Of a DNA stretch of 45,512 nucleotides, positions 17,442 through 23,285 are shown one piece after another. The stretch is taken from positions 1 through 45,512 of the forward strand of contig JAHEKY010000013.1 in assembly GCA_024644465.1 (NCBI GenBank), written 5' to 3'. Under the pieces are notes generated by a model that did no database searches, had not been told where the DNA came from, and saw only the letters and a program-made list of their open reading frames with translations. Numbering within the stretch: the stretch's first letter is position 1; every line of letters starts with the position of its first letter. Origin of the DNA: Ilumatobacteraceae bacterium. GTDB lineage: Bacteria; Actinomycetota; Acidimicrobiia; Acidimicrobiales; Ilumatobacteraceae. Both the position numbers and the translations under genes were made by a program.

Positions 17442-18665
17442 CTACCGGGCGACCCGGATCGATCTGCGCCAGGCGCTGAAGCTGGTGATCGGGCCGTCCG
17501 ACGGCTTCGCCAGCCATGGCCAAGGGTGGACCTCGGCGGGCACGATCGCTTCGGCCCGGGTGCGGAAGCCGGGTACCGGTGCGAACGTGACCGCCACGTT
17601 GCGCACCGTCAGTTCGCGGACGGGATCGCCCAGGACGATCGCGAGATCGCGCGTCTCGCCGAGCTCGGCGAGCGTCTCGGTGAGGAACACGAGGCGCTTC
17701 GAGCTGAGCCGGAGCCGATCGAGCAGCGGTTCGTCGAACACGAAGACGACCGGCAGTTCGGGATGCGCGACGAGCGCCGGATCGGCGTGGCCGAGCGATT
17801 CGGCAGTGAGCCACACGAGGTCGGGGACCCGGTTCGTCAGGACATGGCTCGGACCGACCGTCCACCGACCGTGGGGATCGGTACGCAGCTCGACCGGTTC
17901 GTCGACCGGCGACAGGGGCGGATTGTCCGGCCAGTCCTCGATCGGGCACCAGCGTTCGAGGTCGCACATCGCGCACAGTGCGCCGGCGCGCCGTTCCACC
18001 TGGTAGCGGCTGAACCCGTAGTGCTTGTCGGACCCGACGCCGGTGGTCCACTGCCATCCGAGACGGTTGGCCGCTCGCGACCCGTCGAGCAGATGCCGGA
18101 AGAACTCGTCCTCGCCGTCGCGCCACCGCCGGCCCTCGCGCACGGCCCACTGGCTGGCGAGCCACATCCTGGCCTGGTTGACCACCCAGCCGTCGCGGTG
18201 GAGTTCACCGACATTGGCCGTGACGCACGCCATCTCGGTGTTCCAGCCGGCGTCCGACGTCGCGGTCGGCGGGAGTTCGTTGTGGACACCGTCGCGCGTC
18301 TTCGTGCCGAGGCGGGCGTACCAGTGGCGAGCGAACTCCTGCCACAGCAGTTCCTCGCGGAACCGCTTGACGTCGGGCTCGGGACCCGCGGCGACGTGAC
18401 GCCACACGGCGCGCAGTGGCAACAGCCCATGGCGGATGTACGGCGACAGCCCCGAGGCGCCGCGCCGCGAGCGCGGGAGGACGTCGCTGCGATGACGGGC
18501 GTAGCCGTCGACGTCGAACCCGGTCAGCGCGGCGTCGGCGGCACGCTGTCCGCCGCGGAATTCCGGTGAACCCGCGACCTCGTCACACACGAGGTGGCCG
18601 AGGTGCGCCGTGACGAACGCCTCGGCGGCGTCGCGCCCCATCGACGGGACCGGGAGGACTTCCAT
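17442..18665 (-). CDS. Photolyase/cryptochrome-like protein with permuted domain order
   Basis: The protein has 407 residues. The FAD-binding helical domain comes first (about 40-230): GASGLSPYIRHG, ELLWQEFARHWY, GWVVNQARMWLAS and WQWTTGVGSDKHYGFSRYQ, all hallmarks of the photolyase C-terminal domain. A Cys cluster follows (CAMCDLERWC, Cys231, 234, 240). The Rossmann antenna domain that normally leads the protein comes last (about 280-405): PDLVWLTAESLGHADPAL, then LPVVFVF and RLVFLTETLAEL. The family repairs pyrimidine dimers with blue light or senses light. The order is swapped relative to normal photolyases of about 450-500 residues. A TACGGT box lies 10 nt before the ATG, inside a CCGACC/GGTCGG inverted repeat (18673-18687). 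Confidence 0.85.
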   Translation of the reverse strand: MEVLPVPSMGRDAAEAFVTAHLGHLVCDEVAGSPEFRGGQRAADAALTGFDVDGYARHRSDVLPRSRRGASGLSPYIRHGLLPLRAVWRHVAAGPEPDVKRFREELLWQEFARHWYARLGTKTRDGVHNELPPTATSDAGWNTEMACVTANVGELHRDGWVVNQARMWLASQWAVREGRRWRDGEDEFFRHLLDGSRAANRLGWQWTTGVGSDKHYGFSRYQVERRAGALCAMCDLERWCPIEDWPDNPPLSPVDEPVELRTDPHGRWTVGPSHVLTNRVPDLVWLTAESLGHADPALVAHPELPVVFVFDEPLLDRLRLSSKRLVFLTETLAELGETRDLAIVLGDPVRELTVRNVAVTFAPVPGFRTRAEAIVPAEVHPWPWLAKPSDGPITSFSAWRRSIRVAR

Positions 18666-18711: not shown

Positions 18712-19551
18712 TCACACGTACTGCCAGCCGAAGCGGCCCTTGACGCACAGGTGGCCGTGGGTGACCTCGTGGTCGGCCGGCGACGTGACCTTGACGATCC
18801 GGTTGTCCTGCACGTGGAGCTCCAGGTTGCAGCCGACGCCGCAGTACGAGCACACCGTCCGCGTGACCGTCTGCTCGTCCTGGCGCCACTCCCCCGCCGC
18901 GCGCAGGTCGAACTCGGTCTTGAACTGCAACGCGTTCGTCGGGCAGACGCCGATGCAGTTGCCGCAGTAGACGCACGCCGAGTCCGGCAGCGTCACGTCG
19001 AACTCGGTCGAGATCCGGTTGCCCATGCCGCGACCGGACATCGCGATCGCGAACGTGAACTGCGCCTCCTCGCCGCACGCGTCGACGCACTTGTAGCAGA
19101 GGACGCACTTGTCGTAGTCACGGATGTACAGGTCGTCCTGCACCTTCACCGGCTCGCTGATCGTCTCGCCGCCCTCGACGTATCGCGTCGCGTCGGCGCC
19201 GTACTCGTCGGACCATGCGTTGATCTCCGGCGCCTGGCTGAGGTCGGTGGTCGACCCCAGGAACTCGAGCACCATCCGCCGACTGTGCCGGACCCGCTCG
19301 GAGTCGGTGCTGATCACCATCCCGTCCTCGGCCGGACGGGAACACGACGGCACCAACGTGCGGTTGCCGTCGACCTCGACGACGCACACGCGACACGCGT
19401 TGACCGGCGTGAGGTTCTCGGCGTAGCAGATCGTCGGCGTGTCGACGCCGTGGGCGGAGCACGCGTCGAGGACGGTCGCGCCGGCGGCGACGACGACCTC
19501 GTCACCGTCGATTCGCACGCTGACCTGCGTGACGGTCTCCGGGTTGCTCAT
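18712..19551 (-). CDS. Formate dehydrogenase iron-sulfur subunit: detached N-terminal part of the alpha subunit
   Basis: This 279-residue protein starts at an ATG that overlaps the stop of the upstream NuoEF gene (ATGA). Domains in order: a 2Fe-2S ferredoxin fold (Cys42, 53, 56, 70); two 4Fe-4S motifs (Cys149/152/155/159 and Cys193/196/199/203); then the molybdopterin-oxidoreductase Fe4S4 domain (CSYCGVGC, Cys234/237/241, and Cys269 in GHLCVKGRFG). It stops at GRFGWQYV, exactly where an intact NAD-dependent FdhA/FdsA would continue into the molybdenum domain. That domain is encoded separately at 21315-23285. The NuoG-type His-Cys3 cluster motif is not present. It must relay electrons from molybdenum to the flavin subunit. 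Confidence 0.9.
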   Translation of the reverse strand: MSNPETVTQVSVRIDGDEVVVAAGATVLDACSAHGVDTPTICYAENLTPVNACRVCVVEVDGNRTLVPSCSRPAEDGMVISTDSERVRHSRRMVLEFLGSTTDLSQAPEINAWSDEYGADATRYVEGGETISEPVKVQDDLYIRDYDKCVLCYKCVDACGEEAQFTFAIAMSGRGMGNRISTEFDVTLPDSACVYCGNCIGVCPTNALQFKTEFDLRAAGEWRQDEQTVTRTVCSYCGVGCNLELHVQDNRIVKVTSPADHEVTHGHLCVKGRFGWQYV

Positions 19552-21311
19552 GAGCGGGCTCCGATCAGTCCGAGCTGGATCGCCGACCGGACGGCACCGG
19601 CGGCGGTGTGGCCGAGGCCGCAGATCGACGCGTCCGCCATCGCGCTCGCCATGTCGTCGATCAGGAGGTTCCGCTCGTCGGACAGCGAGCCCCGCGCGCG
19701 CATCTCGACGAGCACCTCGTGCTGGCGGGTGGTCCCGACGCGGCACGGCACACACTGCCCGCACGACTCGTTGCGGAAGAACTCGGCGATGCGGATCACG
19801 AGCGCGGTGAAGTCGACCGTGTCGTCGAAGAGCGTGACGACGCCGGAACCGAGTGTCGTCCCCGCGGCGGCCGTGTCCTCGGCGGTGAGGCGGAGGTCGA
19901 GTTGATCCGGGCCGACGAATCCACCGGCTGCGCCACCCATCAGGATCGCCTTCGTCGTGCCCGTCGCGCCGCCGGCTGTCTCGATCAGCTCGCCCAGCGT
20001 CGTCCCCATCGGCACCTCGTACACCCCGGGCTGCGCGACGTGACCCGACAGGCAGAACAGGCGGGTGCCCGGCGACTTCTCGGTGCCGGCGAACCGGTAT
20101 GCGTCAGCGCCCGAGAGCACGATGAACGACGCGTTGAGCAGCGTCTCCGGGTTGTTGATCACCGTCGGGTCGCCGAACAGCCCGTGCGTCGACGGGAACG
20201 GCGGCTTGTTGCGTGGCTCGCCGCGGTATCCCTCGATCGACTCCATCAGGGCGGTCTCTTCGCCGCAGATGTACGCGCCGGCGCCGCGGCGGATCTCGAT
20301 GTCGAAGCGCTTGCCGGAGCCCATCACGTCGTCGCCGAGCAAGCCGGCGGTGCGGGCCTGCTCGACCGCGCCCGCGAGCCGTGCGGTCGCGAGCGGGTAC
20401 TCGCCACGGATGTAGATCCATCCCTGCTCCGCGCCGACGGTCAGGCCGGCGAGCGTGAGCCCCTCGACGACCGCGAACGGGTCCTGCTCCATGACGACCC
20501 GGTCCTTGAACGTGCCGGGCTCGGATTCGTCGCAGTTCGCGATCACGTGCTTGCGTGAAGCGTGCTCGTCGGCGACGCCGCGCCACTTGATCGCCGTCGG
20601 GAACGCGGCGCCGCCGCGCCCGGTCAGCCCGGCGGCGCGGATCTCCGCGATCACCGCGTCCGGCCCGATCGCGAGCGCCTTCTCGGTCGCCGCGTACCCG
20701 CCGTGCTCGCGATACGACGCGAGCGACGTCGGGTCGACGACGCCGACGCGTTGCAGCAGGCGGAGGTCGGCCGAGCCGTGCTGCGGGACCCGATACGAAC
20801 CCGGCGCGTCGATCGTCGACGCGTCGGCCGGCACGTGATCCGGCTCGCCGCGACCCTGCACGAACTGTGCCGGCGCTCGCTCGCACTGGCCGAGGCACGG
20901 GCCACGGTGGACCCGTTTCCCGTCCGCTTCGAGCGACTGGGCGAACGCCTCGGCGCCGGCGATGTGGCACGACGTGTCCATGCACACGTGGACGACCGAC
21001 TCGTCGTGGCCGGGGTCGTCGGTGCGGAACAGCTCGTAGAACGTCGCCACGCCGTACGCTTCCGCCGGCGGCACCTGGAGTACGCCGCAGACGTGGTTGA
21101 GGCCGCCGGGGCTGATCCAGCCGGTCTCGGCCTGGAGTGCGTGCAGCGCCGGCAGCAGCAGGTTGCGCCGCGCCTTGCGGCGCGCCATGCCGCCGCGCAC
21201 GAGCCGATCGGTCTCGTGGACGACGACGGTCGCATCGTCGTCGAGAACCGCCGCCACCGCAGCCCGTTCCGCTTCGGTCGAGTCGTCGACGGTGAGGTGC
21301 AGGTCCGCCAT
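19548..21311 (-). CDS. Formate dehydrogenase diaphorase subunit, NuoE-NuoF fusion
   Basis: This 587-residue protein starts 3 nt after the stop of the catalytic gene. Residues about 40-155 are NuoE/FdsG-like with a 2Fe-2S site (Cys110, Cys115, then Cys139 and Cys143 in GPCLGQC). Residues about 190-570 are NuoF/FdsB-like: GLTGRGGAAFPTAIKW and the ICGEETALMESIEGYRGEPR region bind FMN and NADH, and ESCGQCVPCRVGT near 525 ligates a 4Fe-4S cluster with a later CGLG Cys. It passes electrons from formate to NAD+. FdsG and FdsB are separate in Cupriavidus-type enzymes but fused here. The complex is predicted soluble and cytosolic. Confidence 0.93.
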   Translation of the reverse strand: MADLHLTVDDSTEAERAAVAAVLDDDATVVVHETDRLVRGGMARRKARRNLLLPALHALQAETGWISPGGLNHVCGVLQVPPAEAYGVATFYELFRTDDPGHDESVVHVCMDTSCHIAGAEAFAQSLEADGKRVHRGPCLGQCERAPAQFVQGRGEPDHVPADASTIDAPGSYRVPQHGSADLRLLQRVGVVDPTSLASYREHGGYAATEKALAIGPDAVIAEIRAAGLTGRGGAAFPTAIKWRGVADEHASRKHVIANCDESEPGTFKDRVVMEQDPFAVVEGLTLAGLTVGAEQGWIYIRGEYPLATARLAGAVEQARTAGLLGDDVMGSGKRFDIEIRRGAGAYICGEETALMESIEGYRGEPRNKPPFPSTHGLFGDPTVINNPETLLNASFIVLSGADAYRFAGTEKSPGTRLFCLSGHVAQPGVYEVPMGTTLGELIETAGGATGTTKAILMGGAAGGFVGPDQLDLRLTAEDTAAAGTTLGSGVVTLFDDTVDFTALVIRIAEFFRNESCGQCVPCRVGTTRQHEVLVEMRARGSLSDERNLLIDDMASAMADASICGLGHTAAGAVRSAIQLGLIGARS

Positions 21312-21314
21312 GGC

Positions 21315-23285
21315 TCAGTTCGCCGCCGCGCCGAGCTTGTCGATGCGGATCGACGCGGCCTTGAACTCCGACGTGCCCGATTTCCTGTCCCACGCGTCGT
21401 TCGTCAGCAGGTTGATGTCGACGAGGTCCGGGAAGTGGAATGTGGTGAACGTGAGCCCGACCGGGATGTCCGGCTGGAGACGCACCGCCATCTCGACCGT
21501 GCCGCGCGGTGACGACACCCTGACGCGTTCGCCGTCGACGATGCCGAGCGCACTGGCATCCGCGGGGTTGATGTCGAGCGCCTCGCCGTAGCGGATCGGC
21601 GACGTGTACCCGTTCGACTGGACGCCGGTGTTGTAGGAGTCGAGTGACCGGCCAGTGGTCAGCCGCAACGGAAACTGCTCGGTCAGCGCTTCGGCCGGCC
21701 CGATGTGCTCGACGACCGAGAACGGCGCCGGGCCGTGGCCGCCCAGGTCGTCCTCCCAGAGCCACCCGTGGAGGAACGGGCTCCCAGGGTGGTCGAGATC
21801 CGGGCACGGCCACTGCAGTCCGCCCTCGGACTCCAGGCGCGCGTACGACATCCCGGCGTGCAGCGGCGACAGCGACCGCAACTCGTCCCACAGTTTCTCC
21901 GGGACCGGCACGCCGCCTTCGTCGCCGCAGTCGCCGACGATGTCGACGCCCATCCGGCGCGCGAGTTCGGCGAGGATGTCGACGTCGTGCCGTGCCTCGC
22001 CCGGCGGCGCCACGGCGGGGCGCGTGAGCTGGACTCGCCGTTCACTGCTCGTGACGGTGCCGTCGGACTCGGCCCATGCGACCGATGCCGGGAACACGAC
22101 GTCCGCGAGTTCGGCGGTGCGGGTCATGAAGATGTCTTGCACGATCAGGGTGTCCAGGCCGGCGAGCAGTTTCCGGGCGTGCTGGATGTCCGCCTCGGAG
22201 TCGGCCGGGTTCTCGCCCAGCACGTAGGCCGCGGTCAGCTCGCCGCGCCCCATCGCCTCGAACATCAGCGTGAGGTGCAACCCCGGCGTCGGGTTCAGCG
22301 CGGTCCCGTACACCGCTTCGAACTTGCCCCGATCCTCGTCGTCGTCGATGTCCTGGAAGCCGGGCAGCTTGTTGGGCAACGCGCCCATGTCGCCGCCGCC
22401 CTGCACGTTGTTCTGCCCGCGCAGCGGCACGAGCCCGGAGCCCCAGTGTCCGACGTGGCCGGTGAGCAGTGCGAGGTTGCACAGCGCGAGCACGTTGTCG
22501 ACCGCGTGGTGGTGCTCGGTGATGCCGAGCGTCCACAGGATCTGCGCCTTGTCGGCGGCTGCGTACACATGCGCCATCTCGCGGATCGCGTCGGCGGGCA
22601 CCCCGGTGATCTCGGCGGTCCGTTCGAGCGTGTAGGGCTCGACCGACGCCTTGAACTCGTCGTAGCCCGTCGTCGAGTGGTCGATGAAGGCTTGGTTGAC
22701 GAGGCCGGCGTGGATGATCTCGCGGGCGACGCCGTTGGCGAGCGCGACATCGGTGCCGACGTCGATGCCCAGCCAGACGTCGGCGAACTTGGACGACGAC
22801 GTCCGCCGCGGGTCGACGCAGTACATCGTCGCGCCGTTGTCGAGGCCCTTCATCAGGTGATGGAAGAAGATCGGGTGCGCCTCGCGGGCGTTCGAACCCC
22901 ACAGCAGGACGACGTCGACCTCCTCGATCTCGCGGTAGGAGACCGTGCCGCCCCCTGCTCCGAACACTGTCGCCAGACCGACGACCGAGGGAGCGTGTCA
23001 AGTTCGGTTGCAGGAGTCGATGTTGTTCGAGCCGATCACCGCACGCGCGAACTTCTGCGCGAAGTAGTTCACCTCGTTCGTCGCCTTCGAGCAGGAGAAC
23101 ATCCCGAATGCGTTCGGCTGGTCACCCGACGCGATCGCATCGCGGGCGGCGCGCAGCCCGTCGGCTGCCCGGTCGAGCGCGGCGTCCCACGTTGCGGGCT
23201 GCAGTTCGCCGTCGATCCGGACATATGGCGTCGTCAGCCGCTCCAGCGCACCGGGCGGGCGGTTCTTCTTCGTTCGTCGCTGCAT
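21315..23285 (-). CDS. Formate dehydrogenase catalytic subunit, selenocysteine-containing (in-frame TGA at 22998-23000)
   Basis: A conventional reading splits this gene at a TGA (22998-23000). The frame continues without shift on both sides, and the junction reads SNNIDSCNRT-U-HAPSVVGL, the active site of Sec formate dehydrogenases (E. coli FdhF has VUHGPSVAGL). Sec is residue 96 of 656 and the following His is the conserved active-site His. Later motifs: LLWGSNAREAHPIFFH, ITEHHHAVDN, RGQNNVQGGGDMG, and a C-terminal Molydop_binding domain (SLDSYNTGVQS). The Fe4S4 domain normally at the N-terminus is absent and encoded at 18712-19551. ATG 23285 is preceded by GAGGG; GTG 23288 is an alternative. 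It oxidises formate to CO2 at Mo/W-bis-pterin. Confidence 0.92.
22957..22997 (-). promoter_or_regulatory. SECIS-like hairpin immediately 3' of the UGA codon
   Basis: Counting from the base after UGA, nt 13-18 GUCGUC pair with nt 24-29 GGCGAC (four Watson-Crick pairs plus U-G and C-G) around the loop GGUCU. A lower stem pairs nt 4-8 GCUCC with 37-41 GGAGC. The GGUCU apical loop at this distance matches the E. coli fdhF SECIS that SelB binds. It also encodes the conserved Gly-Leu, so part of the match is protein constraint. Confidence 0.7.

Follow-up and report, generated by a model that had tools for sequence, protein, structure and literature searches.

The NewPHLs, reportedly introduced in a 2020 study in NAR, are said to have an inverted domain topology. 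This topology is stated in the accessible part of PMC13274461, and the accessible part of PMC8948257 gives NewPHLs a mere Trp dyad. Phr7, a NewPHL, is described as lacking Fe-S cysteines in the portion seen of PMC9426592. The same portion describes, for marine Synechococcus and Cyanobium, Phr4/Phr5 and a fused form, Phr6, in which the FAD domain comes first, and gives the Fe-S cysteines of RS9916 Phr4 as C169, C254, C257 and C263. Because of these cysteines Phr4/Phr5/Phr6 were proposed to be (6-4) photolyases; in that text (PMC9426592, seen in part) the (6-4) activity is the authors' prediction, and E. coli carrying the Phr4/5 locus of Synechococcus RS9916 was protected against UV-C, with a light effect that was not significant. 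An earlier note on the DNA analysed here had taken the reversed order to be unreported, a claim that falls, as both NewPHLs and the cyanobacterial Phr4/Phr5/Phr6 already have it.

We analysed a gene for a reversed photolyase-like protein in the window, that is, the whole stretch of 45,512 nucleotides of Ilumatobacteraceae DNA under study. The gene and its domains are laid out as follows.

17442..18665, minus strand: whole ORF of the reversed-domain photolyase-like protein, 407 aa, uninterrupted from an ATG start
17925..18578, minus strand: FAD-binding domain, residues ~30-247, with a PF03441 match at 103-221 and approximate outer limits
17826..17924, minus strand: inter-domain linker, residues ~248-280, its position estimated from the secondary structure of the model
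17445..17825, minus strand: C-terminal antenna-type alpha/beta domain, residues 281-407, from models, hhalign, Foldseek and genome search

We examined the two domains separately. The FAD domain that the earlier note had read from motifs was recovered by profile search: PF03441 (FAD_binding_7) matches residues 103-221 with 44 bits against a cut-off of 27 (E 2.2e-11), and it was the sole family matched in a Pfam scan of the window protein up to E 10, with PF04244 absent. Likewise, a phmmer search of the PDB paired residues 31-257 with residues 170-403 of Thermus photolyase, its C-terminal part, at E 4.4e-14. An AlphaFold2 model built from 77 aligned rows (pLDDT 94.9, pTM 0.93) is helical to about residue 240 and has an alpha/beta domain from residue 283, with strands at 283-287, 306-311, 341-346, 357-360 and 378-380. 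Foldseek with the whole model returned photolyases and cryptochromes only among the 50 matches listed. These alignments spanned 198-271 columns at TM of at most 0.46 of the query, the partial alignment that one would expect of the model if a single domain can be aligned in order. Thus the claim of a FAD domain first and an antenna-type domain last within one ORF is upheld by PF03441, by the model and by the profile-profile comparison given below.

A peptide-pattern search of GTDB genomes found 104 relatives, of which 80 were kept. Full-length alignment retained 76 of these loci, which with the window give 77 rows; L058 (early stop), L080 (partial), L032 (open 3' end) and L012 (a near-copy of L011) were left out. 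Homologues of the same order were thus collected, as the earlier note had proposed, and since 76 relatives and the window align over their full length an assembly error does not account for the reversed order. Record titles place nearly all relatives in Actinobacteria; L051 bears the title of an Acidobacteria MAG, and the Bifidobacterium breve label carried by the MAGs of several relatives is not trusted. No relative was found in the viral contigs scanned with A2. Together the results give good support to the window protein being a conserved photolyase homologue with reversed domains.

The identity of the C-terminal domain depended on the method. The earlier note had read it as the antenna domain and named a PF00875 search as the check; HMMER gave no match, whereas profile-profile comparison supported the assignment at 95%. 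In the window protein the C-terminal 152 residues matched no Pfam family, and across the family a weak PF00875 match appeared in 7/77 rows, at best with E 0.029. Among three full-length relatives from Deinococcus (L083-L085, annotated as FAD-binding domain-containing protein) two matched PF00875 at E 0.00072 and 0.001, below the Pfam cut-off, and the third had no PF00875 match; a free-standing C-domain ORF of Deinococcus sp. QL22 reached E 0.00023, again below cut-off. With hhalign, the C-domain aligned to a profile of canonical N-terminal domains (27/30 rows used; L101, L105 and L113 left out) at 88% for the actinobacterial rows, 97% for Deinococcus alone and 95% for the combined actinobacterial and Deinococcus profile. 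Controls stayed at or below 5.2% for 21 decoy profiles made from neighbouring genes and at or below 1.4% for swapped domains.

Structure and genome searches point the same way. Modelled alone, the C-domain gave pLDDT 87.8 and pTM 0.78, and Foldseek with this model placed photolyase or cryptochrome chains at ranks 1-7 and 9 (TM 0.51-0.59). The best E was 1.6e-3, so that none reached 0.001; of the eight photolyase-family matches, seven are the class II photolyase of Methanosarcina mazei and the other is mouse CRY1. A search of 396 genomes from the phylum with the C-domain profile brought up five weak matches beyond the strong ones of the family itself; 4/5 are N-terminal domains of full-length canonical photolyases and the fifth belongs to the family, as a gene fragment. 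A family-gene fragment, L168, was seen in genome G029 on a contig that also carries a full C-domain match. Against the PDB the same profile hit a photolyase-family chain at E 0.86 only, though at the expected position within that chain's N-terminal domain, and the QL22 ORF hit one at 1.3 only, behind an unrelated FluC at 0.13. We support homology of this Rossmann-like domain to the canonical N-terminal antenna domain on the strength of hhalign, the models and the genome search. That the protein is instead a stand-alone FAD domain with an unrelated tail would fit the lack of any Pfam match in its last 152 residues, but the profile-profile, model and genome-search evidence contradicts it. We give this reading almost no credence and reject it, given 95% in hhalign against decoys at or below 5.2% and weak genome matches that are canonical N-domains.

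For comparison with other photolyases we used a 47-row alignment of the FAD domain. It holds 16 actinobacterial rows of the family (the window, 13 loci and two from ~1-Mb genomes), 14 class I rows, 7 FeS-BCP rows, Deinococcus rows and five plasmid rows that we take to be NewPHLs. In the tree of this domain 4/5 groups have strong support, Deinococcus being the weak one (76/20), and the joins among the reversed rows, NewPHL and class I carry no resolved support. AU tests did not reject a single clade of all reversed rows (p 0.431), and gave p of 0.427 for the Fe-S reversed rows as one clade and 0.425 for the Fe-S reversed rows with FeS-BCP as one clade. A Persicobacter plasmid ORF of 447 aa (L153) also has its FAD domain before a C-terminal part, lacks the Fe-S cysteines and has an unsure place in the tree.

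The putative Fe-S cysteines and the lesion pocket lie in these stretches.

18225..18227, minus strand: codon of C147, the first putative Fe-S cysteine, in 77/77 rows and Cys in 7/7 aligned FeS-BCP rows
17946..17975, minus strand: C231, C234 and C240 (CxxC-x5-C), the other putative Fe-S cysteines, in 77/77 rows and with Phr4-like spacing
18048..18353, minus strand: lesion-pocket stretch (E105, W108, N163, M167, W206) with the Trp pair W204/W181, from alignment columns and conservation in 77 rows

C147, C231, C234 and C240 are invariant in 77/77 aligned rows. Their spacing is 84/3/6 in the window protein against 85/3/6 in RS9916 Phr4, and in the 47-row alignment their columns coincide with the cysteine columns of seven FeS-BCP (DPRP) proteins taken from related genomes. 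Because mutants of the PhrB cysteines were insoluble or unexpressed, according to the part of PMC4619345 available, a structural role is likely for the family's putative Fe-S cysteines and, by this analogy, for those of the window protein.

The pocket agrees with class I photolyases. In the 16 actinobacterial rows E105, W108, N163 and W206 are kept in 16/16 and M167 in 15/16 (L in L078); these columns correspond to E274, W277, N341, M345 and W384 of E. coli photolyase, after which the residue roles are assigned. L137 and L138, family proteins from ~1-Mb genomes, have the same cysteines and pocket. N163 is invariant in the 77 aligned rows, and the catalytic His of PhrB (H366) is absent. N and M stand in 14/14 class I rows; the first column of that class is mixed (E 9, Q 4, R 1), so E105 does not discriminate. 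The FeS-BCP columns (7 rows) read Q, W, H, L and then W in 5/7. In the accessible text of PMC4619345, PhrB H366N and H366N/L370M show no repair. Since class I has N/M and PhrB H366N/L370M is inactive, the family's natural pair is at once that of class I and that of a dead (6-4) mutant.

These data bear on whether the window protein could be a (6-4) photolyase, as proposed for the cyanobacterial Phr4/Phr5/Phr6. The four cysteines, aligned with those of 7 FeS-BCP rows, speak for it, as do the authors' prediction and the UV-C phenotype of Phr4/5, so far as the seen part of that paper goes. However, N163 and (in 15/16 rows) M167 stand where 7/7 FeS-BCP rows have H and L, the loss of repair in PhrB H366N (PMC4619345, in part) counts against it, and a DPRP gene of FeS-BCP type is already present in 27/30 surveyed hosts. 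We hold a (6-4) photolyase to be decidedly improbable. At least in the actinobacterial branch, the N/M pocket as read from the alignment speaks against the step from Fe-S cysteines to (6-4) specificity in the text seen of PMC9426592.

Beside the pocket, the Trp pair W204/W181 is present in 16/16 actinobacterial rows, and the same 16/16 lack the third Trp that 10/14 class I rows have in their chain. Two residues set the actinobacterial rows apart: Q109, against R in each of the other 31 rows of the 47-row alignment, and S196, where 23/24 other non-FeS-BCP rows have D and FeS-BCP rows have A.

We determined how widely the family occurs and which photolyases accompany it. By the C-domain profile the family is in 30/396 sampled genomes of the phylum, with completeness of 90% or more in nearly all; one more genome, the 31st to match, has a canonical photolyase only. 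In the class 47/198 sampled genomes matched, 35/47 of them from one genus code, and the profile matched 18/60 related genomes. Companion photolyases were surveyed in 30 of the 47 matching class genomes, comprising 12 larger and 18 small (~1 Mb) ones. A canonical PF00875 protein above cut-off occurs in 12/30 hosts, namely all 12 larger genomes, and DPRP (FeS-BCP type) in 27/30 (9/12 larger, 18/18 small). The 18 small genomes, perhaps marine Actinomarinales, have no PF00875 match above cut-off and three weak ones. TIGR00591 (class II) matched in 17/18 small genomes, always below the curated cut-off and in one only in a 95-aa frame; with these class II-like matches in 17/18 ~1-Mb genomes we rejected the idea that the family is its host's sole CPD-type photolyase. 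Among the 60 relatives, hand counts gave PF00875 in 16/18 genomes with the protein vs 27/42 without, and DPRP in 11/18 vs 18/42. The window's own genome has the reversed protein, a PF00875 photolyase and DPRP. Because most hosts carry other photolyases too, the reversed protein mostly adds to them and does not replace them.

FO synthase is the source of a common antenna chromophore. Its model TIGR03551 matched in 19/20 hosts searched, 18 above cut-off, the one host without a match being the window's own genome (G000, 83% complete).

We compared gene neighbourhoods in the window and at the 80 loci, 81 sources in all, of which 75 include >500 bases upstream. A gene with DUF2256 and DUF3253, assigned by Pfam on one representative, adjoins the photolyase gene on the same strand in 30/81 sources (25 upstream, 5 downstream), within 80 bases in 29/30; one further copy lies 2 kb off on the other strand. 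No paper that joins DUF2256 or DUF3253 with photolyase came up in the literature searched. On a Sphingomonas plasmid (L162, 2878-3018) a DUF2256 gene adjoins a deoxyribodipyrimidine photo-lyase gene, hinting at a link between DUF2256 and photolyases that is wider than this family. The recurrent DUF2256/DUF3253 neighbour gives a way into two protein families whose function is unknown. In 8/81 sources a gene resembling FAD-dependent amine oxidases is found upstream in the same orientation, three other matches being weak, and a relative of it (~30% identity to 7/8) is directly 5' of the NewPHL-like gene in Asticcacaulis. DPRP photolyase genes are in the flanks of 4/81 sources.

The 4-kb flanks of the window gene contain no DUF2256/DUF3253, amine-oxidase-like or DPRP gene. 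Upstream lies a formate-dehydrogenase-like (FDH-like) operon, and downstream a gene for a rhodanese-domain protein. In the operon (18712-22997, minus strand) the FDH-like alpha subunit is apparently split, with its halves in inverted order:

21318-22997, minus strand: FDH-like catalytic domains PF00384 and PF01568
19548-21311, minus strand: NuoE/NuoF-like fusion
18712-19764, minus strand: FDH-like N-terminal Fe-S half (Fer2_4, Fer4, Molybdop_Fe4S4)

Homologues of the FDH N-terminal half are near the photolyase gene in 5/81 sources, the window included.

A conserved neighbour of unknown function, other photolyases alongside in most surveyed hosts, and Q109 and S196 peculiar to the actinobacterial rows would all suit a cryptochrome-like blue-light or redox sensor that has lost DNA repair. 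The part of PMC8591293 seen reports that Rhodoluna lacicola has an uncharacterised protein of the cryptochrome-photolyase type, CPF2, which may or may not belong to the same family. Yet the class I pocket columns are retained and the window protein has no further Pfam domain. Retention in ~1-Mb genomes that also have DPRP and class II-like genes suits repair as well as sensing. A sensor is, in our judgement, unlikely, if still worth weighing.

With a little more belief than doubt, we favour a reversed photolyase of the Phr4/5/6 kind that contains FAD and a [4Fe-4S] cluster, repairs CPDs and has a substrate niche of its own; cofactors, activity and substrate we infer. According to this proposal the N-terminal helical domain would bind FAD, and C147, C231, C234 and C240 would hold the [4Fe-4S] cluster near the C-terminal end of the FAD domain. 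FAD would be photoreduced via the Trp pair, W204 and then W181. A cyclobutane pyrimidine dimer would flip into the pocket of E105, W108, N163, M167 and W206. Blue light would then excite FADH-, directly or by way of a chromophore held by the C-terminal domain, and the dimer would be split by an electron from the excited FADH-. A separate niche is probable because most surveyed hosts carry another photolyase and an FeS-BCP-type gene; it is probably a substrate that the other two photolyases serve poorly, for example CPDs in single-stranded DNA as for NewPHLs. By that analogy CPDs in single-stranded DNA are perhaps the substrate of the window protein. Against repair of CPDs stand the non-discriminating E105, the peculiar Q109 and S196, and the UV-C data and (6-4) prediction for the Phr4/5 locus. 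A broader proposal, tentative and on balance doubtful, is that the family is a third actinobacterial photolyase, kept even by lineages with ~1-Mb genomes, with Fe-S cysteines and a CPD pocket, often with a DUF2256/DUF3253 partner, for lesions beyond the usual two photolyases, e.g. CPDs in single-stranded DNA.

The literature search found no title or abstract opening that names an actinobacterial reversed photolyase, most subscription papers being beyond reach, and no biochemical test of an actinobacterial member. The actinobacterial branch of the swapped-domain photolyases thus looks uncharacterised, and we compared it with each known system in turn.

The NewPHL-like plasmid rows (n=5) resemble the window protein in inverted topology, in the N/M pocket and in a Trp pair without a third Trp, but at least three of the four cysteines are missing in them. 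The C-domains give no support for a closer tie, as hhalign scored the window family's against that of NewPHL at 0.2%, and that of NewPHL against the canonical N-domain at 2.8%. FeS-BCP (6-4) photolyases such as PhrB share the four cysteines in the same columns. In contrast to the window protein they have the canonical order, a DPRP N-domain, H/L in place of N163/M167 and no Trp in the W204/W181 columns; PF04244, the DPRP N-domain, is not among the six Pfam families matched in the 77 rows. Class I CPD photolyases share the N, M and W pocket columns, the FAD domain and an antenna-type domain. Unlike the window protein, they have PF00875 before the FAD domain, no Cys in the four columns, and R and mostly D for Q109 and S196.

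The Deinococcus plasmid proteins L083-L085 have the same order, four cysteines and N/M/W pocket, but show 30-31% identity and keep R and D at the Q109 and S196 columns. The Deinococcus sp. QL22 pair has the four cysteines and the N/M/W pocket and likewise keeps R and D, but as two separate ORFs and with Q in the E105 column. On its plasmid (L087, 3908-5199) the FAD and antenna-type domains sit in two ORFs, an arrangement reminiscent of cyanobacterial phr4/phr5, though here the two ORFs overlap by ATGA.

Phr4/5/6, as described in the text seen, are like the window protein in having the FAD domain first, the photolyase domain last and four Fe-S cysteines at matching spacing. They are cyanobacterial and the window family actinobacterial, the likeness being one of description, in domain order and cysteine spacing. 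The window protein is an actinobacterial member of the kind described in 2020-2022, which suggests that reversed-domain Fe-S photolyases are more than a picocyanobacterial oddity. The strongest new point, taken from the alignment, is the joining of FeS-BCP-like cysteines to a CPD-type N/M pocket. Fe-S cysteines and (6-4) specificity, two traits that have been read together, appear separated here, and the family therefore provides a test of the cluster's purpose.
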